Shown here: positions 36,692-51,099 of the stretch, in pieces
Position numbering within the stretch: position 1 is the first letter of the stretch
Layout of the letters: each line of letters begins with the position of its first letter
From: Candidatus Poseidoniales archaeon
Lineage (GTDB): Archaea; Thermoplasmatota; Poseidoniia; Poseidoniales; Thalassarchaeaceae
Assembly (NCBI GenBank): GCA_012964335.1
Contig: DTUF01000004.1
Coordinates: 1-62,491 of the forward strand
DNA: 62,491 nt
Direction: 5' to 3'
Position numbers and translations under genes: made by a program
The notes under the pieces: generated by a model
Database searches by the model: none
Told to the model about the DNA's origin: nothing
The model's input: the letters and a program-made list of their open reading frames with translations, nothing else

Positions 36692-36775
36692 TGCAGGAGG
36701 TGGGATTCGAACCCACGAACCTCTTGAGACCGGAGCTTAAGTCCGGCGCCGTTGACCAGGCTTGGCAACCCCTGC
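36692..36775 (-). tRNA. tRNA-Leu (anticodon UAA)
   Basis: An 84-base minus-strand tRNA folds fully: acceptor GCAGGGG pairs with CUCCUGC (one G-U), anticodon stem CCGGA/UCCGG with loop CUUAAGC gives anticodon UAA, and the T arm is GUGGG-UUCGAAU-CCCAC. A long variable arm makes it a class II tRNA, as expected for leucine. The discriminator base is A and CCA is not encoded. The gene is followed on its strand by six Ts (36685-36690), a likely terminator. Confidence 0.95.
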
Positions 36776-36926: not shown

Positions 36927-36941
36927 CACGGCGTAGCCGTG
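36927..36941 (+). promoter_or_regulatory. Hairpin containing the GTG start of a surface-protein gene
   Basis: CACGGC-GTA-GCCGTG is a perfect 6-3-6 inverted repeat whose last three bases are the GTG start codon at 36939. An AACGG-A-CCGTT repeat lies just upstream (36914-36924). AT-rich sequence near 36836-36849 could serve promoters on either strand. Confidence 0.4.
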
Positions 36942-39902
36942 GAACAAACAACATCAACCTATGCCGCCGCACCGAGAATCTCATTGGTATCGCTATTTCT
37001 CGTTGCTGTGATGATTTCTACACTTTTAGCGCCGCTCTCCTCTCAGCCATCAGGTTCTGAATTATTATCGGAAGAACCACGTTACAACAGTGGCGAAATT
37101 CCAATGAAACTTTACAATATTTTTGTAGACAAGAGAAATTCAACCGCAGGTGGTGATGGATACCTAACCACAAAGACGCCAAATAATGGCCAGAGTAATG
37201 AATCAGCTCTTTCAGGTTCACTTGAATTTAGGACCAGAAATGTGCTAAGTGACATGCCAGTAGGTGGTAGATCGGCATCAGGAGGCGGAAGTGGTTGGGA
37301 GATACCCCTCAATATTTTCCTTAAAGCAACTGCAGGTTCACAACAGCAGACAGCAACTTACACCTTCACACTAAGGATTGAAGATGATAGTGGAAGTTCA
37401 GAAACAATCTCAACTGCGCAAAAAGAACAGAGTGCTTGTGATGATATATTTGGTTGCGGTTGGCATCAAGAAATTGTACGATTGCAATGGATTGGTAATC
37501 AGTACAAGACAATCCCATCTGGGGGCGCACTTACCCTAACAGTATCTGCCGAATCTACTTGTGAAGGACAAGGTGGTGGACCGTTTGGTCCCTCATGTGA
37601 TGCTGAAGTAATGTGGGGCGACCCAGATTCATCTGATGATTACTCAACCATGGAGTTCTGGTCTAATGCTGCCTCAGGAAGTGAGGTGAGAATCTTTTCG
37701 GAAGGTGCTCTTTGGACTGACCCTGAAACCTTGGATTGGTTTCCTAACGAATTGCCAGAAGAGCGTTCAATGGCATTCAAAGTCAGTGTCGTCAATGCCC
37801 TAGGCAGGGAAGATGTCACTGCAGTATCTGTCCAATTGCGTGCTCCAGATGGAAGTTATCCTGTTGACCACACTTTCACCAATGCTGAGTTGACTGAGTC
37901 TGCAGGTGTCTTGAGTGGTACTTTTGTTTGGACTTATCCAGCAGGTATTCAAGCTGGTGTTTACACATTGACTCTCTCTGTCAGTGATATTCAAGGTTCA
38001 AACCCATTTGTTTTCGAACATGATGAAGTAGTGGTTCACCAATATGGCGTTTCTGTCAGGAATGCCGCTGACCGTAGTGCAGAATATATTGCTCCAGATC
38101 AGACTACTCCAATAATGTTTATTTTACGTCATACTGGCTCTTCAGGTTCCTCACTTGATATTCAATTAGATTTGCAGACTACTCTTGATTCAAGTTGGTC
38201 TGCTCTATTTGACCGGCCAGAAGGCTACACTATCAGTGATGGTGGAAATGAGGTGACTGCACAATTGACATTAGCGGCTCCTACTGAATTAGGCAATGCA
38301 CCACCACGACTTGATATCTCTGTGCGTGCTTACAATACAAGTGGTGCAGAGGTACACTATACAACGATGCAAATCACTTTGGAGAAATTAGATGTATTTG
38401 CCCCCCCAATGGTCGCACTTTGGGATAGTGAGCATGACAATCAGATAGACAATTCAACCCTAAGGGGAGGACCACTCGAATTTGATGTAACAGTCCCCCA
38501 ATTTGTAGATGATTTGGGTCCCCCTACACCTTTCTACATTGAAATATTCAATACTGGTTTTGATGTTGATTCATTCCGCTTTGAAGTCACTGAAAAGCCC
38601 AGAGGAACGGTATTTTACTTCGTAGATAATCAGACTGGACAGATGATTACTCAAGACCCTAATGATGGGTTGTGGCACAGCCCAGCAATGCCAAGGCACA
38701 CCAATTACACTTTGGCACTATTTGTCAATCCCTCATCAGAGGTGGACGACCCTGACTATGGTTTAATGGAAATTGAATTATCCAGTGCTGGAAATACATC
38801 TCTGTCTGCAATAGTAGGTTTCACTCCTCATCGTACCAACGGACTACAAGCATCGGTGGTCTTTGATTGCGATGGTGAAAGTAATGGCTTAGGCCATGTT
38901 GAATATCAGAACTGTCTGAATGATGATAGTGATGAATACATTGATGTCAGAATGCGAATAGAAGCAACTCAAACTTCTGGAGATGATAACCAAGTAATTG
39001 ATTGGAGGGTAGTTAATCCTGCTACTTATGAGAGGAACGAAGATGGTGAACACGGGAAATACACTTTGTGGGATTACTTCATCACCAATACAGACAATGA
39101 TCCAATGCCAGTAATGCAAATGACCGTTGGAGATACTGTTGAGTTTAATCTTGAGATTCACCTAACTAACCAAGTATTAGCAGCAAACCACACGATTTAC
39201 GTACGAATTGAAGAAGTTACAGAGAATAATGATGCACAGCGTTTCTTTGATTTACCAATTAGTATTGAAGTAGGTGATGGCGACCCAGAATTGAAAATTA
39301 TTCAGAATACAACAAATCAAGCTATGGCTCCTGGTGTCGAAAAAACCTATGAAATGACTCTCAAGAATGAAGGGAATACAGATATGCAGGTTGTTCTTAG
39401 TGCCACTGCGCCAAGTGGATGGACAGTGGTTGCAGAAAATCATAACACACAATCATCCTTAGTCTTAGTTGATGCATTTTCAGAAATCACATTTCAAGTT
39501 ACAATTACCGCTGCAGAAAATGCTCGACACGGTGATTTCCATACAATTGTGGTGACCGGAAAACCACAATCATTTGAGACTGGATTTTCTGACCAGTTTA
39601 ATGCAGAATTAGATATTGATATTCGTGTTGAAATTAATGACCCTGTTCTCAGAATCACAAATGAACTGAGTAACATGCGCAATTCAACGATTATGATGCT
39701 TGCAGGATTCATTATCCTAGTTGTAGCAGCAATTGCAGGTAAGCGCAGAAGAGTTGACGTTTGGGATGAAGAAGAGGATGAACATGACGTTGATGAAGAG
39801 TTCGACTTACCTGAGGCAGTAACAGATGAAGAATCTGAGTTAGAGGAAATCATTGATGATGAAGATGATGACCTTGATGAAATTGAATTAATTGATGATT
39901 GA
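36939..39902 (+). CDS. Large cell-surface protein with acidic cytoplasmic tail
   Basis: The 987-residue protein starts at a GTG and has a signal peptide (about 12-36, ISLVSLFLVAVMISTLLAPL). The long outer region is rich in Ser, Thr, Asp and Gly with beta-sandwich-like repeats; segments such as NTTNQAMAPGVEKTYEMTL and NEGNTDMQVVLSA resemble CARDB/NPCBM-associated Ig-like domains. A single helix (about 918-936) is followed by RKRR-type basic residues and a strongly acidic tail of about 45 residues. It is probably an S-layer-like or adhesion protein with its tail in the cytoplasm. No enzyme domain is visible. Confidence 0.8.
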   Translation: MEQTTSTYAAAPRISLVSLFLVAVMISTLLAPLSSQPSGSELLSEEPRYNSGEIPMKLYNIFVDKRNSTAGGDGYLTTKTPNNGQSNESALSGSLEFRTRNVLSDMPVGGRSASGGGSGWEIPLNIFLKATAGSQQQTATYTFTLRIEDDSGSSETISTAQKEQSACDDIFGCGWHQEIVRLQWIGNQYKTIPSGGALTLTVSAESTCEGQGGGPFGPSCDAEVMWGDPDSSDDYSTMEFWSNAASGSEVRIFSEGALWTDPETLDWFPNELPEERSMAFKVSVVNALGREDVTAVSVQLRAPDGSYPVDHTFTNAELTESAGVLSGTFVWTYPAGIQAGVYTLTLSVSDIQGSNPFVFEHDEVVVHQYGVSVRNAADRSAEYIAPDQTTPIMFILRHTGSSGSSLDIQLDLQTTLDSSWSALFDRPEGYTISDGGNEVTAQLTLAAPTELGNAPPRLDISVRAYNTSGAEVHYTTMQITLEKLDVFAPPMVALWDSEHDNQIDNSTLRGGPLEFDVTVPQFVDDLGPPTPFYIEIFNTGFDVDSFRFEVTEKPRGTVFYFVDNQTGQMITQDPNDGLWHSPAMPRHTNYTLALFVNPSSEVDDPDYGLMEIELSSAGNTSLSAIVGFTPHRTNGLQASVVFDCDGESNGLGHVEYQNCLNDDSDEYIDVRMRIEATQTSGDDNQVIDWRVVNPATYERNEDGEHGKYTLWDYFITNTDNDPMPVMQMTVGDTVEFNLEIHLTNQVLAANHTIYVRIEEVTENNDAQRFFDLPISIEVGDGDPELKIIQNTTNQAMAPGVEKTYEMTLKNEGNTDMQVVLSATAPSGWTVVAENHNTQSSLVLVDAFSEITFQVTITAAENARHGDFHTIVVTGKPQSFETGFSDQFNAELDIDIRVEINDPVLRITNELSNMRNSTIMMLAGFIILVVAAIAGKRRRVDVWDEEEDEHDVDEEFDLPEAVTDEESELEEIIDDEDDDLDEIELIDD

Positions 39903-40033
39903 ATCGATTGAGAGGGTTCTAATAGCCCCCCCTTTAGGGCAGATTAACGACTTGGGTCGGACGCGTAGAAGTAGATGGTGGCTCCCAAAAGGATGCTTTC
40001 ATCAGATTTCACGAGGTCTAGGCAACAGATCGG

Positions 40034-40048
40034 ACCCCTTGGAGGGGT
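40034..40048 (+). promoter_or_regulatory. Hairpin enclosing the NYN RNase ribosome-binding site
   Basis: ACCCCT-TGG-AGGGGT is a perfect 6-3-6 inverted repeat ending six bases before the TTG start at 40055. The GGAGGGG Shine-Dalgarno-like sequence (40041-40047) lies in its loop and 3' arm. Confidence 0.4.
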
Positions 40049-40054
40049 TGCTAA

Positions 40055-41416
40055 TTGGTAGAAAATGAAGAAGAATCGAAGGTAGTGATAGTGATTGATG
40101 GCCCCAATGTTGGGATGAGCCACTCTGCAAATAAGTGGCCGGCATCAGCTACAGGAATTGCAACTGCGGTGACGTATTACTCTGATGCTGGATACGAAGT
40201 ATACGCGTTCGTGCCACGGCATTATCTCAGCGATAATGCGGGTAAGAAGGGTGTAGATGACCCATCAATTCTACGTGCATTGAAGGATAAAGGAACGGTT
40301 GTTTCTGTCCCATCACAAGATCATGATGATGATTACTGGCTACAATTTGCTTGGCAACAGGGCGCTTATGCCGTCACTAATGATAGAATGAAAGACCACG
40401 TGTCAAAATATCCTAATGGTGAAGAAGGTTTTTACAAATGGCGAGATAACAAAGTTATATCTTACACCTTTGCTGGAGATTTTTTCCTTCCTAACCCCTC
40501 TTTTGATTTACCAAAACCTACAGTTCATCAAGTGAAGGAATTAACCAAATCAAAGCCAAAGACTGATTCAAAAGGCAGCAAAAAACCAATTCCAAAGGAG
40601 AAGAAAAAGCAACAATCAAAGCAACCTCCTCAATCAAAGAAAAGCTCAACGTCTCCTACTGTTAGACAGGCTCGAAAAGCATTTCGTGAAGCGGTTAGAC
40701 AAAGGTTAGCAGGGGGTTCAGTAAACTGTGGACTTTTAGCCTCTGAGATTACTGGGCTTGTTAATGAAAAATTAGGACAAGATTGCGCTAATAGGAAAGA
40801 GTTGATGGGGGTAATGAATGTATCAACAACCCTCTCCTTCCATGACCAATTAATTCAGGTAATGAGTAGTGAATTGAAAGTTGAGTTAGTCAACGGCCAA
40901 CCAGTTGATGTTCACTTGCAAGATTCGCCTAATTCCAAGCCTTCAACATCAAAGTCTGAGCCTAGTAGTAAACAGCCGCAACCTAAGGCTAAGAAAAGTG
41001 TTGAAAATCAGCCTAGAAAAGTTACTGATAATAAGAGTGGAAAAGGTAAGCGAATGCACCTAGAAGAATTCAAACAAACTCTTAGTGAAAATGACCTTGA
41101 TAAATTAAAAATTTCGATATATCAATTACCATTAAAAATTGAAGAAGCAATCCCATTTCTAACTACCATTGAGTATCCTGTTAATTATGCAGATGTGGGT
41201 AATCGGTATAAGGCGAAATTTGGTACCAGAATCAGTTCTTTATTCAAAAATATGGACAATTTAATCTTATTTATGAATTTCAGATTGGAGTTTAATGTTA
41301 GTGATTTAATTCGCGATGGCGACATGATTTTACGTGAATCAGCATCTTCAAAACCTACTTCAAAAAAGCCCTCTTCCGGCGGGATAATTGGTTGGCTTAA
41401 ATCACTATTTTCATAA
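40055..41416 (+). CDS. NYN-domain ribonuclease, Regnase-1 (ZC3H12A)-like
   Basis: The 453-residue protein starts at a TTG with GGAGGGG upstream. Residues 8-148 match the PIN-like NYN domain of Regnase/ZC3H12 RNases: VIDGPNVGMSH with Asp15, an acidic HDDDYW segment (Asp91-93), AVTNDRMKDH with Asp110, and ISYTFAGDFFLP. All four catalytic acidic positions of Regnase-1 have a counterpart. A Lys/Ser/Pro-rich linker (about 160-205) leads to a helical region (205-275), a second linker, and a C-terminal domain (about 335-430) that could be OST-HTH/LOTUS-like. It probably cleaves RNA in the cytoplasm; targets are unknown. Confidence 0.82.
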   Translation: MVENEEESKVVIVIDGPNVGMSHSANKWPASATGIATAVTYYSDAGYEVYAFVPRHYLSDNAGKKGVDDPSILRALKDKGTVVSVPSQDHDDDYWLQFAWQQGAYAVTNDRMKDHVSKYPNGEEGFYKWRDNKVISYTFAGDFFLPNPSFDLPKPTVHQVKELTKSKPKTDSKGSKKPIPKEKKKQQSKQPPQSKKSSTSPTVRQARKAFREAVRQRLAGGSVNCGLLASEITGLVNEKLGQDCANRKELMGVMNVSTTLSFHDQLIQVMSSELKVELVNGQPVDVHLQDSPNSKPSTSKSEPSSKQPQPKAKKSVENQPRKVTDNKSGKGKRMHLEEFKQTLSENDLDKLKISIYQLPLKIEEAIPFLTTIEYPVNYADVGNRYKAKFGTRISSLFKNMDNLILFMNFRLEFNVSDLIRDGDMILRESASSKPTSKKPSSGGIIGWLKSLFS

Positions 41417-41654
41417 GATAAATCTGTACTATTAAGAACTGATTTTCCATGGTTATTTTTGCCCCTAATTTTTACGATACAGATGCTTAAGAATTGGGAT
41501 GGTGATTGAATCATCTGTTGAAACTAGCCCTAATGTGTGTATGAACTGTGCTCCAACTGTATTAAGAGGCAAGAGATATGGTTAGTATATAGGTTCAAGT
41601 ATGCTTATGCAAGGTCAATCAAAGTTCAGCGCGGTTTTAAGACTCCAAAGCAAG

Positions 41655-44600
41655 ATGAGGATGAAGGCTTTATTTCTAGTCTCGCTGATGATATTCACAT
41701 CGTTAGCGGCGTTGGAATTTGCATCATGGGAAGCAGCTGCAACTACCGACCAAGATGGGGATGGGTTAACCTGTGGTATGGAGTTTTTACTACAGACTCA
41801 ATGTCAAGATTGGGATTCTGACAATGATGGTTTACCCGATGGCTGGGAATGGAAGTATGGATTGAACCCAAATGATGGTTCTTCACTTTCAAGCAATGGT
41901 GCTTCAGGTGACCCCGATGGTGATTCAATGTCTAACCTCCAAGAGTACACTTACCTAACTCCACTCGGATGGGACTCTGCAAACACTCCAAATATGCTTG
42001 ATAACGGCGTATGGTGGAATGGTACTGTTCCCGTTCGAAACTGGAATGAAGAGGGTGCAATGCAAGTCAATCAACCGGCTTGTGGAGGGCCAGGAAATGA
42101 TGGGAATGGTTCCACAGTAATTCTTTGTGATGAAGATCCGGTAGGTGATATTTGTAATGATGGAATTGACAATGACAAAGATGGCCTTGTTGACCATGCA
42201 GACCCAGATAAGGATGGTGACCAAGTTTGTGGCTCAAACGATGACGATGGTGATGGCCTTTTTGATGAGGACCCTGATGGCTGGGATACCGATGGCGATG
42301 GACTTCCAGATGGTTGGGAAGTTGCAAACAACCTGAATGCAACTAATCCGACAGGCATTGACGGAATGATGGGCGACCCTGATGGCGATGGTTTAGTCAA
42401 CATTCAGGAGTATGTCAACCCCTCGTGGACAACCACAAATAGCGGCACTCCTTACTTCATGTCGGGCAACCCACAGACCGAACAGGCTACTGAGAATGTT
42501 AATCCATGTAACCCTCTATTTGGGTGTTTAGCCCAAACAGCTTCAGTAGACCAAGATACTGATACAGACCCTTGGGATAATGACACAGATAATGATGGAT
42601 TGGAAGATGGATGGGAAGCACTGACAATTCTCACTGACCCAACTTCTGCTGATACAGATGGTGACGGAATTGATGACGGTGTTGAAGCTAATGTCTCAAC
42701 ATACGGAAACCCACCTCAGCACAGCGACCCTCGTGACAACAATACAGACGGCGACCAGTTTGATGATGGAGATGAAGATAAGAATGGCAACGGCAGAGTA
42801 GATGCCAATGAAACGGACCCTACTCGCAGAGAGGATGCAGGGGATTTCGATAATGATGGAATTGATAACTGGATTGAGAATCTATCCTGTTCAATGTGGA
42901 ATGTATACGACACCGACTTTGGAGGTGTTGGCGATGGTGATGAGTCAAATCTATCACACTCAACAGATCCATGTATGTCGTTAATTGATTACAGCACAAC
43001 TCTAGACACTGCTGCACAGGCTGGTGGTTACAATGCAGGACTACAGCGCCTGTATCTTACAGACGCTTCTGGTTTTGACTCAACTCCAATTGATTGGCGA
43101 ACTCTAAATGGGGCTGTTGGCTACTACAATGATTCCAATGGACAATTGACGAGTTTCAGTTATGGTGCAGTTGTAAACAACATCCTATTTGGAGTAGTTA
43201 CTCCTCCACCAGCAAATACTGTTGAAGTGATTTCCAAGAATGGCAGTTGGTGCCACTATGAAGGTGCAAACTCTGGCAGCCTAGGCACAACACACTCTCA
43301 CTGTGATGACGATTACGCAGATAGTGATGGAGACGGATTAGCGGATTGGGAAGAGACCCTTTCAATATGGGGTTGGTTCTCAATTTCTACGCTGTATGAT
43401 TCTGATGGAGATGGTCAAAATGATTTGGATGAAATACTCAATTCAACTGACCCAATGGAACCATGTGATAACACATTAGATACTGATGGAGACTTACTCA
43501 ATAACTACTTTGAGAACACAACTGGTTGTGATTTGATGTTTGTACCAGGCATGGGTGCAGGCAACGGTTCAACTGATGCATATGTTACCGATTATCTTGA
43601 TATTGATACTGATAACGGTGGGGTTATTGATTCACAAGAATATCTAGATGGGACAAATCCCCAGAATGACCCATCTGATGATATGAATCCCGCTGATACT
43701 GATGGCGATGGTATCCCTGATAACATCGAGAATCAAACTGGTACAGACTGGCGGAATCCCGATACCGATGGTGGGGGGATGAGTGATTACGAAGAATGTC
43801 CTCCTCAATTTTGGCAAGATTGTCACCTTAGTCCGCAAAACCCATGGGACCCAACTGACGATATCAACCCTAACGAAGTTGTGTTCTACGCTAACAACAC
43901 TTCTAGCACTGGTAATGGTGTAGATACTAATTTAATTCACCGGTGGAGAGTAAAAACTTATGATTACTACACTGGAGGAGCTTATGGAATAAATACATCA
44001 TTAGTCAGTGAACAGCAATTAACTGCTGGTGAAATTAACACCTATCAGGTTGCCAACAATACTTTTTGGGATTCGACAGAAATGTGGCTAATGGAATTCC
44101 TGCAGCCGATTGAACCCGGTGGCACTTTACCTCAGCCCTCACATACAATCGAATATATGTCATGGTTTGATTCAATGGCAGAATTGAATCAGACAAACCA
44201 CACCCGAGATATCCGTGTGTCAGCAACAGCCGTTGGTGGCTTGATGGTTAGTGTGCCAGAGGTAAACTACACCGATTCCGAACTTCAGGCTGGTGTGGAG
44301 TTCCCAACCCCATACGCAACGGATTTACCAGAATATTTTACCGACTACACATTGAGAGAATCAAATGTCAGTAACATCACATATGGGGTCATTACGGATT
44401 CTGGTGCGGTCTCAGCATGGGATAAGATTCAGGCGATCAAAAATTATCTTTCAGAAGAAGATACCAATGTGACCGATCCGGATTTCAAGTTGAATTTTGA
44501 TGGTTCTGGCGCACCAAATATTGAAGATGTCTCACATTTCATCCTTGACTATTCAAGAGAAGGTTCGTGCTCAGAATATGTGACTACTTTCACCACGATG

Positions 44601-47600
44601 GCGAGGATTGCAGGAATACCTGCGCGCACAGTAACTGGTTACACAGGTGGAGTTTGGCATGGGACTGGTTACATGGTGATGGGCTCAAACTGGAATACTT
44701 GGTCTGAAGTACATCTGCAACAAATCGGGTCAAATTTGGATATGGGGTGGATACCAATTGACCCCTGCCCTCCAGCTGAACAGGTTCAATTCCTCAATGA
44801 AAGTGTAAATCCTCTAACATTCGAGAGGGACCTTTCTTCTGGATTGATTTACATTAATGGTTCCTTACAATTCACCAACAACAGTACGGGTGCTGTTGAT
44901 GCACTTGTGAATGCTTATCTCGTTTCAGCAAATGATACCAATCCTATGAATCCATCAGTTTTGAACGAAGATTCTCGTATTCGTGCTATTTTGACTGACC
45001 AAAATGGTAACTTCTCAATAAATGGGACTCCAGCGATGATGCCTGACCCAGGTTATGCAAAAGTGGTTGTTGAGTCTAGACAAGGGGGTTATGTACCGTA
45101 CTCATACCAAGTATACGCTGTGACTCTGAATATAACTGACGATGTTAATTTCACTTTAACTGGGCCCGAACCAGTCGGCGCTCCGATTATTGGGGCTGGC
45201 ACTACAACTACTATCACTGGCAATATGCTTTGGAATGCCACGCCACAAACTGACCCATCAGTGACGGGAAATTTCACTGTTGAATTGACTTATCCTTCTT
45301 CTGTTTTAAGTGCTAATGTAACCTTGCAAGCACCGGTTTGGACAGATGGTTTCTTTTCCTTCGATCTCAACTTGTCAGACCTTGAATCACAAGGCTTGCG
45401 TCAAGCAACAATCTCCTTTGCAGGTTGGCATGAGGGTAATTTGAACTTAGTCCCATCTCCGGTTTATCACGCACGCCCAGGTACATTGAATTTCACAATG
45501 AATATCTCAGCAGCACCAAATATGAATGCTACAATAGAAGGTCCCGGCGCCAATCATTCGTTGTTAGTAATCAACGAAAATATCTATGTAAATGGTACTG
45601 TGGATACCCGTGGTGCTGCACCTGCACCTATGGATGGGTACATATCCCTCTTATTGCGAAGTAATGGCAGTAATACTAGTTACACAAATATTACAACTTG
45701 GGTAGTAACCAACGGAGTTTACAACATTACTTGGAGAATGAATGGTAGTGATGTACCGATTGGGCCAGGTTATCTAGATGTCCAATTATTATTTGGGCAA
45801 GGTATTCCTGGCGCTTCTGACCAAGATGAATTCGTAGGATATGGTTTACGTAGTGAAGTTACAATGAGTTTCAATCTCGGCTCAATAGAGCGCGGTCAAA
45901 TGGCATCGGTGATGGTATCATTAGCTGACCATACAGGTATGGCTACTCTTCCATTCAATGGCACTTATCTCATGACATTTGATGGGACGCTTGTCAATAC
46001 TTCAGTTGACCCTGAGGGTGACTGGATTACTAGCGAATTTACACCCTCTGGGACTCTCGCAGCAGGTGACTATTGGTGGAATATTTCCTACGATGGATAC
46101 CTAGGTGGGAACGCAGGTAGCGAATGGTTCAAGCCAGCAAATGCTAGTGGCCTTCTCCTTGTTACTGGAACTGCTACATTATCCATCAATCTTGCTCAAG
46201 AGTGGACTCACTTAGGAGGTACTACGGTAATTTCAGGGACTCTTACGGATGATGTGCTTGGTACACCAATTCTATGGCATACCGCAGATGTACAGTTTTC
46301 AATTGCCTTGCCAGGGACTGGTCCAAATGGGCCGAATGGGGAACCTCCACTTCCAATATTCATTCCTTTAGGTAGTGGATTGTCCAACCAGACCAATGGA
46401 AATTATTCCGTTGTGGTTACTTTACCAACTGACCTAGCATCAGCAGCTCATAACCTCACTACAATACTTGATTTTGATACCTATGCTGGACCTCGTGGTG
46501 CATACTACTTCATGTACACTCCACCAGCAGCATTGATTGGACTTGAATCCGAGTTGGTGCTAAGGAGCAACATTACAACGGTGATAGTTGAAGCAGGAAA
46601 TACAATTCCTTTCAACGTCACAGTTACTGATGTGGGCGATGGTTCTGCCGTAGTTGGAGAAACAGTCAATTTCACATGGGATTGGGGCGGCACAAACACT
46701 TCGATTGGACAAGTCGTCTCAGGTGCAAATGGTGTGACGATTCTGAATTGGGTCGTGCCACCAACAATGGACCCTGGCTATTACGATGTGAGAATCTGGA
46801 TGGCTAACGATACCTCCGACCCTCTTTCATCTGGATCTGCACGATGGTGGGGCAATGAAACTTTCATGAATATCACCGTACAGGTACCGTCTGATGTTGT
46901 GATATCGTCTGTGCCACTAAATGTGACAGCAGGAACTAGCTTCCAATTAGTGGGCACAGTCAATGATGGCAACGACGTATCCCGGCCGTTCAACGGACCG
47001 GTTGGAATTGAAGTCTTCTTCTTAGGCGACCCATCAGAAACGTTGGTTGCAAGTTATATTACTGCCAACAACGGTTCATTCAACTTATCAGTTCCAACTG
47101 ATCCAAATAATGATGGTATCACAAATGGAAACAAGACTCTTGTGGTTTCAGTACTTGATGGCAGTAATCCATTCTACCTTACAGGCTCAGCAAGTTCAGG
47201 GATGCTGATTATTGGCGTTACTGATTTCGAACAACAAACCCCACTCATCCCAATAGTTGTTACTCGTGGTGAGAATGTTAGTTTCGGCGCAGTACTAGTC
47301 GAAGCATCTGACAATTATCGGCTCATTACTAACACTACAGTTGCGGCACAATTCCACGATACTTGGATACCAGATTCAATGACAGACAGTAATGCTACTG
47401 CATCGTGGACTTACTCCGTGCCAAATACCCAACCTCTTGGACAGATTACAGTGACAATTTACTATAATGCAACAGGGATTTGGGAAATGCATCCGACAAC
47501 TCATCAAATCGGCACAATTAGTGTGCGTTCAATTACCGTACTTGTTGTGGATAACATTAGCGCAAACCCACTTTCAGGTGCTGTATTTGATGTCACAGGA

Positions 47601-50555
47601 AGCCTAGTTTCTGACAACGGCTCAGGAATCATTGCTAGGAGTGGCGCTGGCCTTCTTCCACAAGTGCAGATTAGTATTGATGGTTATACCAATAATTTCC
47701 AGGTCTCTAATGCGATAGCACAACCAAACGGAACATGGACAGCAGTCATTACTTTGGATACAGACTTCCCACGTGGAACACATCTATTGGCTGCAAGTTA
47801 TACTCCAACTGTAAATTACTATCTCAGTTCAAGCGGTAACAATACCTTTGATAGCCGAGGATATTCTGTAATCACTATATTGACGCCAGAGAATCTTGAC
47901 CCTGATTACAGAACAGTGCGTGGAGATAACGTAAGCATTCAGGTGATGTTGCAAGACAACACCTTGGCAGTAATCCCGAATGCAACGATTACTATTGAAT
48001 TCCCTACTCTAAATATTTCAACAACAGTTGTTACAGATATCAACGGAACTGCATGGGCTCTACTCAATGTGCCAGACAACATCGCACCAGGTCCGCTTTC
48101 AATTAATGCCAGTTATCTTGGCATGGCTGGAACTACAGGGGTTCTTGGTGATGAAGATACGACACTCCTCATTATATTAGCACCAACCGTGATTACCATT
48201 GATTCTGTAGAAGGAAATTTCATCGCAGGTGATGTGATTTGGGTAAATGGGACTCTACTTGATGAACATGGAAACTTGTTACAAACTGGAGGGGTGCCAG
48301 CAGCCAGTATTTTGCATCTATCAGTTGATGGTAACGATTCAGGAGCATTCATTGAGTCGAATGCATCTACTGGGACTTACAGTCTGATGTACACCATGCC
48401 TAGCGAAACAGCGGCTGGTAGCCACCTAGTGACGATTTTCTTCAGGGGTGGATTCATGTGGGTTGATCCAATAGGTCAAGGCGATTCAACAAACCCCGAG
48501 TATTACCTCAATTCATCAGCTGAACAGTGGGTAAACATCAGCGTTCCAACCTACATCGTTCTGCTAGGTGGCGGAGGCGATGTAGACAGAGAAGGCCTCC
48601 TCATCATTGATGGAACTCTGTTTGATATTGTTGACAACAGATTAGCAAACGAATCCCTAGAAGTTTGGTTTGACAATACTTGGCTTACAAATGTTACAAC
48701 AGACAGTGAAGGTAACTTCCAAGTTTACTACCCTGTCCCAGCGGATTCACCTCTCGGAGCACAGATGATGGAGATGAGATTTACGGGCTCAACCTTCTAC
48801 TTACCTTCAGAAGCGAACACCTCATGGAATGTGTACAGCGCAGTCAATGTGGCTTTGATTCTCCCAACAGAGATAGCTATCAATGACAATCTTACGATTC
48901 AAGGAACGGTAAGGGATAATCTCCCTGAAGGGTGGCTCCTAAACCACTCACTTGAGGTACGTTTCAACGGTACGCTCCTTGGTACAGTGTACTCCGACTC
49001 TGATGGGGTTTGGATTATTGCGTGGACAATCCCTAACAACATTGGGCTTGGTTCGCACCCAGTAGAAATCTATGCTCCAGCCCAAGGTTGGTATCGTGAA
49101 GCAAGTGCGAATGGTACAATTTGGGTTGCTCATCATTCAGACTTATTGTTGAATAGTGAGGACAACGGTGACGCTACGCGCGGTACCTTCTGGAATGTAT
49201 CCGGACGCTTGTATGATTCCGATGCAATTGGTTTGCCAGGGATTTCAGGGCGAAGTGTTGACATTTTGCTTGATGGAGTATTTGTTGACACTGTAACAAC
49301 TGATTCATTTGGTGAATTTGAACTATTAGTTCCAGTTAGTATGGTTTCAGCACGTGGTGAGCACACACTTTCAGCACACTATTCAGGCGAGGCATCATGG
49401 CTGTCAACTAATTCAACAACAACTTTGACTACTTGGGCTGATATTGATTGGCAATTGGTTGAAAATGAGAACATCATCGTCCGTTCTTCTTCGTCTCATC
49501 CAATAATCATTGAAGGAAGAATCCTTGAGGTTGGAGGAAGTGGGAATCCAGTAGAAATGCTCGACCTTATTCTCTATTGGAATCAGAGTGACCTTGGTAT
49601 TTCTGAGCAAGTGGTATGGATGGGTGACGGTAGTTTCAGTATCCAGTTAACTGCTCCACAATATATGACAGCAGGTGAAATCATTTTGACTCTAAGAGCC
49701 ATGGATAATACCTCAAGAAACTTCAATGGTGATCAAATCAATACATCAATCTTCGTGGTCATTCCTGTTGACTTTGAGACTGGTGTGGAGATAGTACCCT
49801 ACAATGGTGACAGAGTAATCGCGTGGGTCAAGGGAACAGCTAAGGACACACAACTCCCAGCCAGTGATATTGCAGTAACAGCCGTTCTGTACAATGATTC
49901 ACATGGTCTTAGTAGGACTTTAACTGGGCGCACAGGAGATAACGGTTCGTTCTGGTTTGAGTTTGCCTCAGTACCACCAATGCCACCTTACGGAGATGGT
50001 TCAACCTACGGTTCACTTTACATACAAATCAACTCAACTGATGAAAAAGTTGCTGAAGATGATAGAGAGCGTCTTGAAACTACTATGGAAGTAATCGTGT
50101 TATCAGCGGGAACCATTGAAGATGGAATTAGTAACTGGCTGTATGGAGGATTAATTGCAGGAGTTCTTGGCGCAGTTGCTTTCGTAGTTTATTGGCGCCG
50201 TCGCAAGCAATCTGCTATGTCTGAATTAGCAGATGTATTCGCTTACACAGCAGAACTATTGGCTGCAGGAGATGAAACTAGAGAGGCTATTTTCAACTGT
50301 TATGAAAGCCTCTGTGCAATTCTGATGCGACACCGCTTCCTACGACGTGACTTTGAGACAGTCCGTGAATTCGAGATGGCTATTCGTAAGGCATTGCCAA
50401 TCAATGAGGAAGCTTTGGTTGCTCTTGACAGTGTATTCGAAGAGGCAAGGTACTCCCGACACGAAATGGGTGAGGCTCACAAGAGTCAGGCTCAGGACGC
50501 ACTTGGCCGAGTACTCGGCCAAATTGACGAACTTGCAGAAGTACCACTTCGCTGA
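41655..50555 (+). CDS. Giant surface protein with transglutaminase-like and DUF4129-like domains
   Basis: From the ATG at 41655 the product has about 2,966 residues (the frame opens 18 codons earlier). A signal peptide is followed by about 700 residues dominated by thrombospondin-type-3-like calcium motifs (DxDxDG). A transglutaminase-like domain has Cys972 in GSCSEYVTTF, His1020 in SEVHLQQ and Asp1036 in PIDPCPP. Some 1,700 residues of repeated Ig/carboxypeptidase-regulatory-like beta domains follow. One helix (2828-2846) ends in RRRK, and the cytoplasmic end (about 2850-2966) resembles DUF4129 (ETVREFEMAIRKAL; ARYSRHEMG). It probably binds or processes protein at the surface. Confidence 0.85.
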   Translation: MRMKALFLVSLMIFTSLAALEFASWEAAATTDQDGDGLTCGMEFLLQTQCQDWDSDNDGLPDGWEWKYGLNPNDGSSLSSNGASGDPDGDSMSNLQEYTYLTPLGWDSANTPNMLDNGVWWNGTVPVRNWNEEGAMQVNQPACGGPGNDGNGSTVILCDEDPVGDICNDGIDNDKDGLVDHADPDKDGDQVCGSNDDDGDGLFDEDPDGWDTDGDGLPDGWEVANNLNATNPTGIDGMMGDPDGDGLVNIQEYVNPSWTTTNSGTPYFMSGNPQTEQATENVNPCNPLFGCLAQTASVDQDTDTDPWDNDTDNDGLEDGWEALTILTDPTSADTDGDGIDDGVEANVSTYGNPPQHSDPRDNNTDGDQFDDGDEDKNGNGRVDANETDPTRREDAGDFDNDGIDNWIENLSCSMWNVYDTDFGGVGDGDESNLSHSTDPCMSLIDYSTTLDTAAQAGGYNAGLQRLYLTDASGFDSTPIDWRTLNGAVGYYNDSNGQLTSFSYGAVVNNILFGVVTPPPANTVEVISKNGSWCHYEGANSGSLGTTHSHCDDDYADSDGDGLADWEETLSIWGWFSISTLYDSDGDGQNDLDEILNSTDPMEPCDNTLDTDGDLLNNYFENTTGCDLMFVPGMGAGNGSTDAYVTDYLDIDTDNGGVIDSQEYLDGTNPQNDPSDDMNPADTDGDGIPDNIENQTGTDWRNPDTDGGGMSDYEECPPQFWQDCHLSPQNPWDPTDDINPNEVVFYANNTSSTGNGVDTNLIHRWRVKTYDYYTGGAYGINTSLVSEQQLTAGEINTYQVANNTFWDSTEMWLMEFLQPIEPGGTLPQPSHTIEYMSWFDSMAELNQTNHTRDIRVSATAVGGLMVSVPEVNYTDSELQAGVEFPTPYATDLPEYFTDYTLRESNVSNITYGVITDSGAVSAWDKIQAIKNYLSEEDTNVTDPDFKLNFDGSGAPNIEDVSHFILDYSREGSCSEYVTTFTTMARIAGIPARTVTGYTGGVWHGTGYMVMGSNWNTWSEVHLQQIGSNLDMGWIPIDPCPPAEQVQFLNESVNPLTFERDLSSGLIYINGSLQFTNNSTGAVDALVNAYLVSANDTNPMNPSVLNEDSRIRAILTDQNGNFSINGTPAMMPDPGYAKVVVESRQGGYVPYSYQVYAVTLNITDDVNFTLTGPEPVGAPIIGAGTTTTITGNMLWNATPQTDPSVTGNFTVELTYPSSVLSANVTLQAPVWTDGFFSFDLNLSDLESQGLRQATISFAGWHEGNLNLVPSPVYHARPGTLNFTMNISAAPNMNATIEGPGANHSLLVINENIYVNGTVDTRGAAPAPMDGYISLLLRSNGSNTSYTNITTWVVTNGVYNITWRMNGSDVPIGPGYLDVQLLFGQGIPGASDQDEFVGYGLRSEVTMSFNLGSIERGQMASVMVSLADHTGMATLPFNGTYLMTFDGTLVNTSVDPEGDWITSEFTPSGTLAAGDYWWNISYDGYLGGNAGSEWFKPANASGLLLVTGTATLSINLAQEWTHLGGTTVISGTLTDDVLGTPILWHTADVQFSIALPGTGPNGPNGEPPLPIFIPLGSGLSNQTNGNYSVVVTLPTDLASAAHNLTTILDFDTYAGPRGAYYFMYTPPAALIGLESELVLRSNITTVIVEAGNTIPFNVTVTDVGDGSAVVGETVNFTWDWGGTNTSIGQVVSGANGVTILNWVVPPTMDPGYYDVRIWMANDTSDPLSSGSARWWGNETFMNITVQVPSDVVISSVPLNVTAGTSFQLVGTVNDGNDVSRPFNGPVGIEVFFLGDPSETLVASYITANNGSFNLSVPTDPNNDGITNGNKTLVVSVLDGSNPFYLTGSASSGMLIIGVTDFEQQTPLIPIVVTRGENVSFGAVLVEASDNYRLITNTTVAAQFHDTWIPDSMTDSNATASWTYSVPNTQPLGQITVTIYYNATGIWEMHPTTHQIGTISVRSITVLVVDNISANPLSGAVFDVTGSLVSDNGSGIIARSGAGLLPQVQISIDGYTNNFQVSNAIAQPNGTWTAVITLDTDFPRGTHLLAASYTPTVNYYLSSSGNNTFDSRGYSVITILTPENLDPDYRTVRGDNVSIQVMLQDNTLAVIPNATITIEFPTLNISTTVVTDINGTAWALLNVPDNIAPGPLSINASYLGMAGTTGVLGDEDTTLLIILAPTVITIDSVEGNFIAGDVIWVNGTLLDEHGNLLQTGGVPAASILHLSVDGNDSGAFIESNASTGTYSLMYTMPSETAAGSHLVTIFFRGGFMWVDPIGQGDSTNPEYYLNSSAEQWVNISVPTYIVLLGGGGDVDREGLLIIDGTLFDIVDNRLANESLEVWFDNTWLTNVTTDSEGNFQVYYPVPADSPLGAQMMEMRFTGSTFYLPSEANTSWNVYSAVNVALILPTEIAINDNLTIQGTVRDNLPEGWLLNHSLEVRFNGTLLGTVYSDSDGVWIIAWTIPNNIGLGSHPVEIYAPAQGWYREASANGTIWVAHHSDLLLNSEDNGDATRGTFWNVSGRLYDSDAIGLPGISGRSVDILLDGVFVDTVTTDSFGEFELLVPVSMVSARGEHTLSAHYSGEASWLSTNSTTTLTTWADIDWQLVENENIIVRSSSSHPIIIEGRILEVGGSGNPVEMLDLILYWNQSDLGISEQVVWMGDGSFSIQLTAPQYMTAGEIILTLRAMDNTSRNFNGDQINTSIFVVIPVDFETGVEIVPYNGDRVIAWVKGTAKDTQLPASDIAVTAVLYNDSHGLSRTLTGRTGDNGSFWFEFASVPPMPPYGDGSTYGSLYIQINSTDEKVAEDDRERLETTMEVIVLSAGTIEDGISNWLYGGLIAGVLGAVAFVVYWRRRKQSAMSELADVFAYTAELLAAGDETREAIFNCYESLCAILMRHRFLRRDFETVREFEMAIRKALPINEEALVALDSVFEEARYSRHEMGEAHKSQAQDALGRVLGQIDELAEVPLR

Positions 50556-50619: not shown

Positions 50620-51099
50620 CTAACTCAAGCGGTTGAGGCTGAGATGCAGTTCGCCACCATCCCAAGTGGCTGTTGCCAGTCGACTTCCGCTTGGTAGTGA
50701 GAAAGCCTGTTCAAATTCGTCACCATCGCGCCCAGTCACATTCAATTTGATAATTGAATTTTCACCTAATTCAGCAGCACTAAGTTTGACGCCAGATAGT
50801 TCACACCCATGAAGTGGAAATGAGAGATGCTCATCGCTGGATTTTCCGTCAAATTTTTCCAACATTGTTTCCGTTGACAGCACCCCGGCAATGCGATCAA
50901 AATTTGCTTCTACTGGTGCAAAGTTGCTTTCCATTGTCGTTTGATGAATATCATGAATCTCTTGTAGGTGTCCAAGGTCTGAGAGGAAGTTTTGATGAAG
51001 CAATTCAGGAGAGGCACTTAGTCCCTCAGTAAAGCGTTTATCTGGTGCAACGTTGCCGTCTTGTTGGTCAACTTGAATAGTGATTGGGTGCCACTTCAT
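50620..51099 (-). CDS. Hypothetical protein beside the XPD helicase
   Basis: The 159-residue protein starts at an ATG with AGGTG six bases upstream (a GTG three codons earlier is less likely). It begins MKWHPITIQVDQQDG and has a helical middle with HQNFLSDLGHLQEIHDIH and a C-terminal half that looks like beta strands (HLSFPLHGCELSGVKLSA, LHLSLNRLS). It has one cysteine and no signal peptide or membrane helix. It lies 51 bases downstream of the helicase gene on the same strand and may be expressed with it. No family is recognised. Confidence 0.6.
   Translation of the reverse strand: MKWHPITIQVDQQDGNVAPDKRFTEGLSASPELLHQNFLSDLGHLQEIHDIHQTTMESNFAPVEANFDRIAGVLSTETMLEKFDGKSSDEHLSFPLHGCELSGVKLSAAELGENSIIKLNVTGRDGDEFEQAFSLPSGSRLATATWDGGELHLSLNRLS

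Follow-up and report, generated by a model that had tools for sequence, protein, structure and literature searches.

The NYN gene and its neighborhood

The window analyzed here is the whole stretch of 62,491 nucleotides, taken from a draft genome of 1.97 Mb in 54 contigs. On its forward strand, an open reading frame lying exactly at positions 40055 to 41416 starts with TTG and encodes a putative NYN ribonuclease of 453 residues. An in-frame TAA stands immediately 5' of the TTG (positions 40052 to 40057), so that this TTG is the first possible start. The start is TTG in all seven orthologs of the genus, and a stop codon (TAA or TGA) abutting the TTG in frame was also observed in genera g1, g139, and g140.

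The NYN gene is present in a single copy in its own genome and occurs in 7 of the 9 genomes of the genus, its own counted; the two genomes that lack it have completeness values of 76% and 53%. At the level of the order, matches were found in 27 of 318 genomes, spread over 9 of 22 genera, and in the phylum 23 of 292 genomes have a match to the Pfam family RNase_Zc3h12a (PF11977) above its cut-off. Elsewhere in the phylum, three genomes of one family (loci L036, L041, and L042) have Zc3h12a-type NYN domains within open frames of about 1000 to 1580 residues. We found no relatives of the protein in viral contigs, phages, or plasmids, and an origin of the gene from a virus or plasmid was rejected on that ground.

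Judged by the sizes of the open reading frames, the gene order around the NYN gene is kept in the two relatives examined: two short genes, a membrane protein, the NYN gene, and a giant secreted protein. Of the two short genes, one resembles a short-chain reductase gene and the other that of a FolB-type aldolase. The gene directly upstream (36939 to 39902, forward strand) encodes a protein with NEW3/NPCBM-associated domains, in an order kept in the two relatives. Positions 41601 to 50555 of the same strand encode a protein of 2984 residues whose core is transglutaminase-like and which also has TSP3 repeats, Ig-like repeats, and a C-terminal DUF4129.

A Zc3h12a-type nuclease domain followed by probable winged-helix modules

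The catalytic domain spans residues 11 to 148 (40085 to 40498, forward strand) and is of the Zc3h12a type. It scores 77 bits (1.6e-21) with PF11977, whose cut-off is 23, and the nearest solved proteins by sequence are ZC3H12C, ZC3H12B, and ZC3H12A (3e-10 to 6e-9, with ZC3H12C at 3e-10); PRORP and KHNYN give weaker matches. The predicted structure of the domain superposes on ZC3H12A, ZC3H12B, ZC3H12C, and KHNYN with VIA Z scores of 12 to 13.4 over 135 to 151 residues. According to PMC12982082, the catalytic aspartates of Regnase-1 are D141, D225, D226, and D244. Their counterparts in the active site of the archaeal protein are D15 (D141), D91 and D92 (D225 and D226), and D110 (D244), with D114 in addition; in 7ndk, an entry titled as a catalytic mutant of the ZC3H12C PIN domain, an asparagine aligns with D15. 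Among 39 aligned archaeal NYN sequences, D15 is kept in 38 of 38, D92 in 38 of 39, and D110 in all 39. The MSHxxNK motif is common to the archaeal protein and ZC3H12C. The original prediction, of a NYN/PIN domain with counterparts of all four ZC3H12A catalytic acids and similar flanking motifs, is thus borne out at this end of the protein, where the profile comparison and structure prediction that it proposed give a PIN-like fold (Z of 12 to 13.4).

NYN/PIN nucleases cleave RNA with the help of a divalent metal. Given the PIN/NYN fold and the intact Regnase-type active site, metal-dependent endoribonuclease activity of the protein is very probable.

Beyond the nuclease, the protein has two further domains on long linkers. 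The latter, which had been noticed beforehand, are indeed basic, low-complexity stretches: the first is rich in Lys, Ser, Pro, and Gln and of low predicted confidence (residues 157 to 198, 40523 to 40648), and the second is rich in Lys and Ser, as seen in its composition and predicted structure (residues 291 to 334, 40925 to 41056). The full-length predicted model has a mean pLDDT of 52.6 and is poor over the linkers. Between them, residues 199 to 290 (40649 to 40924) form a winged helix in both structure predictions, LOTUS-like by fold. Its top VIA-align match is the LOTUS domain of TDRD5 (3s93; Z of 7.1, below 8; rmsd of 3.1 over 78 aligned residues), a match that rests on one of five models (pLDDT of 71, the other four having 52 to 54). 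Egalitarian, TDRD7, MARF1, Tejas, and Oskar are further LOTUS matches among those listed, and the winged helices of SelB and cullin rank close behind. Foldseek alone gave no match for this domain with E below 0.2. The conserved C-terminal domain (residues 336 to 427, 41060 to 41335), followed by a short conserved tail, shows helices and then two strands in the same model, an order of elements similar to that of the first, and is possibly a second winged helix. The two domains are weakly similar to each other (hhalign E of 0.0006, probability 28). Taken alone in Pfam, they were assigned to no family, OST-HTH included; an OST-HTH search of the archaeon's own genome gave no match over the cut-off, and comparing sequence profiles of both domains with solved structures brought no convincing match. 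The domains may still be distant OST-HTH members.

The LOTUS-like C-terminal domain of the original prediction therefore has to be moved: LOTUS-type fold matches exist, but they concern the middle domain. In our models, a nuclease with LOTUS-like modules is a fair working description of the layout. Calling the protein Regnase-1-like stands for its Zc3h12a-type NYN domain and intact active site, but not for the CCCH finger, as no CCCH-like pattern was found and the 453 residues include two Cys. Since the CCCH zinc finger is the defining feature of the Regnase family, that name applies to the NYN domain only.

A conserved RNA element precedes the NYN gene

The upstream stop codon (39902) is separated from the TTG by 152 bases, in which a leader element of 117 nt begins (39944 to 40060, forward strand). 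It consists of a long irregular hairpin with compensatory changes (39948 to 40032), seen in the folding and the pair counts, and of a CCCC/GGGG hairpin (40033 to 40049) that pairs part of the Shine-Dalgarno sequence (GGAGG at 40041 to 40045). A structured leader had been predicted ahead of this gene; it is present, and larger than the single hairpin then described. About 22 to 34 nt before the long hairpin, the motif GGGTTCTAATAG (39914 to 39925, forward strand), partly kept in relatives, could by its sequence be a TATA box.

In three close relatives, the identity of the leader is 0.93, 0.76, and 0.89, against 0.78/0.77, 0.45/0.50, and 0.72/0.81 at the adjacent third codon positions. In three more distant relatives it falls to 0.52, 0.51, and 0.62, near the values of third codon positions, and there the leader keeps its fold rather than its sequence. 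Each of the seven leaders of the genus, folded alone, gives a long irregular hairpin followed directly by the CCCC/GGGG hairpin. Their folding-energy z-scores range from -0.1 to -4.3, and two leaders (L021 and L025, at -0.1 and -0.7) are not more stable than their shuffles. When the leaders were aligned by MAFFT without structure, 7 of 32 pairs had changed on both sides, against a mean of 2.6 in shuffles, none of which (0 of 500) was as high. An alignment of nine leaders has 16 of 35 pairs changed on both sides, with none of 500 shuffles as high and 3 to 8 in slid controls, and 91.6% of its cells pair (38 to 50% with the partner slid), figures that lean toward the model because this alignment was fitted to the covariance model. 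The four G-C pairs of the Shine-Dalgarno hairpin are invariant in the nine leaders and hence show no covariation. G-U pairs make up 61 of the 283 paired cells in this table; as these would be A-C on the other strand, we read the RNA on the forward strand, with the gene. Conserved features of the long hairpin are its internal loops and its upper part, GGYGG(A/C)UC ... CUKYC.

Searched over 40 genomes, the covariance model gave matches with E below 0.2 in eight, all of them abutting NYN genes. Seven are the leaders of the genus, and one is in a genome of another family (G048, E of 0.118 in that genome), where the leader ends at the point at which a NYN fragment, located by protein search, begins. 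G429, which belongs to the same genus as G048, has the leader too (E of 0.0044 among 19 loci), abutting the NYN gene. A sequence-only model built from the same alignment finds the seven leaders of the genus and misses these two. The NYN gene of G048 has different, divergent neighbors, which indicates that the leader travels with the gene. The model did not recognize the long hairpin in genera g139, g140, g7, and g3. Weak matches in two genomes (G023 and G039, E of 0.64 and 0.91) were taken as chance, and so probably is a match on the reverse strand of the window past the 3' end of the giant gene (50645 to 50749, 17.2 bits, E of 0.053).

Several other identities of the element were considered and rejected. 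It is not a regulon element, as no second copy was found in the genome, the sole one preceding the NYN gene. Nor is it a tRNA or a known RNA family: the sole Rfam match in the window is a tRNA at 36692 to 36775, and there is none in the leader. A coding sequence was rejected because no frame is open in all seven leaders, with interruptions in different orthologs, and a bacterial-type terminator because none was found and the neighbors are divergent in G048.

A GC-rich stem at a non-ATG start

The proposed hairpin over the ribosome-binding site is present as ACCCCT-TGG-AGGGGT within 40033 to 40049, but the first two G of GGAGG are in the loop, and the Shine-Dalgarno sequence is thus covered only in part. 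Owing to these looped G, its predicted accessibility is not unusually low: among the 31 window genes with a Shine-Dalgarno-like motif (median 0.31), the NYN gene falls outside the 12 least accessible, a point against restraint by the hairpin.

A GC-rich stem close to the start was found in 22 of 26 NYN genes of Poseidoniales, versus 2 of 45 neighboring window genes. The 27 matching genomes divide into a close set of 17 and 10 others, of which 9 were measured and one (G252) was left out. In all 17 close orthologs, which come from six genera and are related rather than independent, the 32 bases 5' of the start contain a perfect stem that includes four or more G-C pairs, mostly CCCC/GGGG with the Shine-Dalgarno sequence in the 3' arm. 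Shuffling leaders at constant composition yields such a stem in 298 of 3000 cases, so composition accounts for part of its occurrence, not for 17 of 17. The inferred start in this set is TTG in 14, CTG in 2, and unclear in 1; in G020 it is ACG by position, with an upstream ATG possible. The more distant NYN genes have a stem in five of nine cases, with other sequences (GGCCC/GGGCC, GGTCC/GGACC, and CTGGG/CCCAG) and an ATG start; those without it are in G386, G470, G409, and G406, the last two with uncertain starts. A second NYN subfamily with ATG starts and a GC stem by the start was observed in genus g7 (L072, L074, L075, L076, and L078), where the stem sequences differ in compensating fashion between genomes.

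Within the archaeon's own genome, the pattern CCCC-N-GGGG before a start has 63 matches, against 22 for the reversed control pattern. Apart from the NYN gene, about six precede long open frames, some of them unconvincing as starts. One leader of this genome (L129, contig C47, from 80560) has a CCCCCC/GGGGGG hairpin ahead of a gene that we take, by its looks, to encode ribosomal protein eS19; the idea that it shares the hairpin-plus-TTG layout was dropped, as its likely start is an ATG downstream. The hairpin of the NYN gene is predicted to be folded from 5 to 65 C, and an RNA thermometer working at sea temperature was rejected for this reason.

Discussion

Our analysis describes an archaeal gene for a predicted RNase with a leader of its own, and its parts recall several known systems. 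Like Regnase-1 to -4 (ZC3H12A to ZC3H12D), the protein has the NYN/PIN fold, the four catalytic aspartates, the MSHxxNK motif, and a nuclease joined by linkers to what may be an RNA-binding module. It differs from them in having winged-helix domains in place of the CCCH finger, in lacking the 8-residue insertion before the DD motif, and in having its conserved element in the 5' leader and not in the 3' UTR. KHNYN belongs to the same NYN family (structural Z of 12 to 13), whereas the Pfam scan found no KH domain in the archaeal protein. PRORP shares the NYN-type metallonuclease fold (Z of 8 to 9.6) but matches less well than Zc3h12a, and no PPR part was seen. As PMC2848206 describes it, in animal MARF1/Limkain b1 and bacterial LK-nuclease (DUF88)-OST-HTH proteins one or two LOTUS domains come after a PIN/NYN-type nuclease, and the LOTUS/OST-HTH domain is very rare in archaea. 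The archaeal protein may have the same order of parts, with modules that are LOTUS-like by fold only, but its nuclease is of the Zc3h12a type and not DUF88. The literature we searched held little on archaeal Zc3h12a-type RNases, the archaeal mention being a table entry in PMC11915815, and little on self-regulating archaeal RNases.

RNases that control their own synthesis are known in other organisms. In Escherichia coli, RNase III (rnc), RNase E (rne), and PNPase (pnp) feed back on their own mRNAs (PMC3997798), and Regnase-1 degrades its own mRNA via a stem-loop (PMC12982082). The E. coli genes resemble the archaeal one in that the mRNA leader of an RNase has a stem-loop, but feedback is established there and inferred here, and the enzymes and leaders are unrelated.

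We propose, with slightly less than even confidence, that the NYN gene encodes a metal-dependent endoribonuclease kept low by its conserved 5' leader, most likely via feedback on its own mRNA. In such a mechanism, the NYN domain would cut RNA, and structured RNA would be held by the winged-helix, LOTUS-like domains, which sit on flexible and basic linkers. The leader stacks a long stem-loop on a GC hairpin over part of the ribosome-binding site, ahead of a poor start codon (TTG or CTG), and would lower the synthesis of the enzyme post-transcriptionally. Once there is enough enzyme, it would bind and probably cut the leader stem-loop, and its own mRNA would be shut off. It is likely that the leader restrains translation of the NYN gene. 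Cleavage of the leader by the enzyme itself is plausible, and the idea of feedback is strengthened by the leader being both specific to this gene and structurally conserved. Because a gene-specific conserved stem-loop stands before an RNase with modules of an RNA-binding type, the leader is best read as the enzyme's own operator.

The leader could also act in simpler or different ways. The GC hairpin on the Shine-Dalgarno sequence and the TTG could be a fixed brake that holds a potentially harmful RNase constantly low, with the long hairpin shielding the 5' end from exonucleases and no feedback at all. Such a brake would fit the persistence of the hairpin and the non-ATG start where the long hairpin is not recognized, as well as the predicted stability of the hairpin from 5 to 65 C, hence no thermometer at sea temperatures. 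However, an 85-nt hairpin whose internal loops and upper part are conserved would be superfluous for it, and we consider it unlikely. We give considerably less credit to an operator or riboswitch of this single gene that answers to another ligand or protein, such as a ribosomal protein or a metabolite. Its complex conserved fold and single copy in the genome would suit this role, but riboswitches usually recur before several genes, whereas in the 40 genomes searched the element was seen ahead of NYN genes only, and Rfam gives no match to it.

Other explanations concern what the enzyme cuts. MARF1 and KHNYN act against foreign RNA in animals, and the NYN enzyme could do the same against viruses or mobile elements, its patchy presence in 9 of 22 genera being that of a defence gene. 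We find this improbable, more so than another ligand for the leader: the gene order, by sizes of open reading frames, is the same in two relatives and includes no defence genes, the best PADLOC match (E of 0.041) is to another stretch of the protein, and no relatives are found on phages or plasmids. Least probable of all is a structure-specific processing enzyme akin to protein-only RNase P, acting on tRNA-like or stable RNAs, with a leader irrelevant to its substrate. The PRORP profile does match the protein (29.9 bits, 5e-7), below its cut-off of 39.1, and the G429 ortholog with 52 bits (1e-13), above it. Yet the Zc3h12a profile scores higher in both proteins, the Pfam scan has no PPR part, and a gene in only 27 of 318 genomes is unlike a housekeeping tRNA enzyme.

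Our preferred reading remains feedback by the enzyme on its own leader. Stated in full, it is that of an archaeal Regnase-type RNase controlled by cutting or binding its own conserved 5' leader stem-loop, a new RNA family that has accompanied the gene through two or more families of the order while the sequence of its helices changed much; in this fuller form, we hold it slightly more tentatively than the general proposal. The leader is a ready candidate substrate for the enzyme. If the reading is true, the element is a candidate for a new RNA family, and stem-loop self-targeting by a Regnase-type nuclease occurs outside animals.
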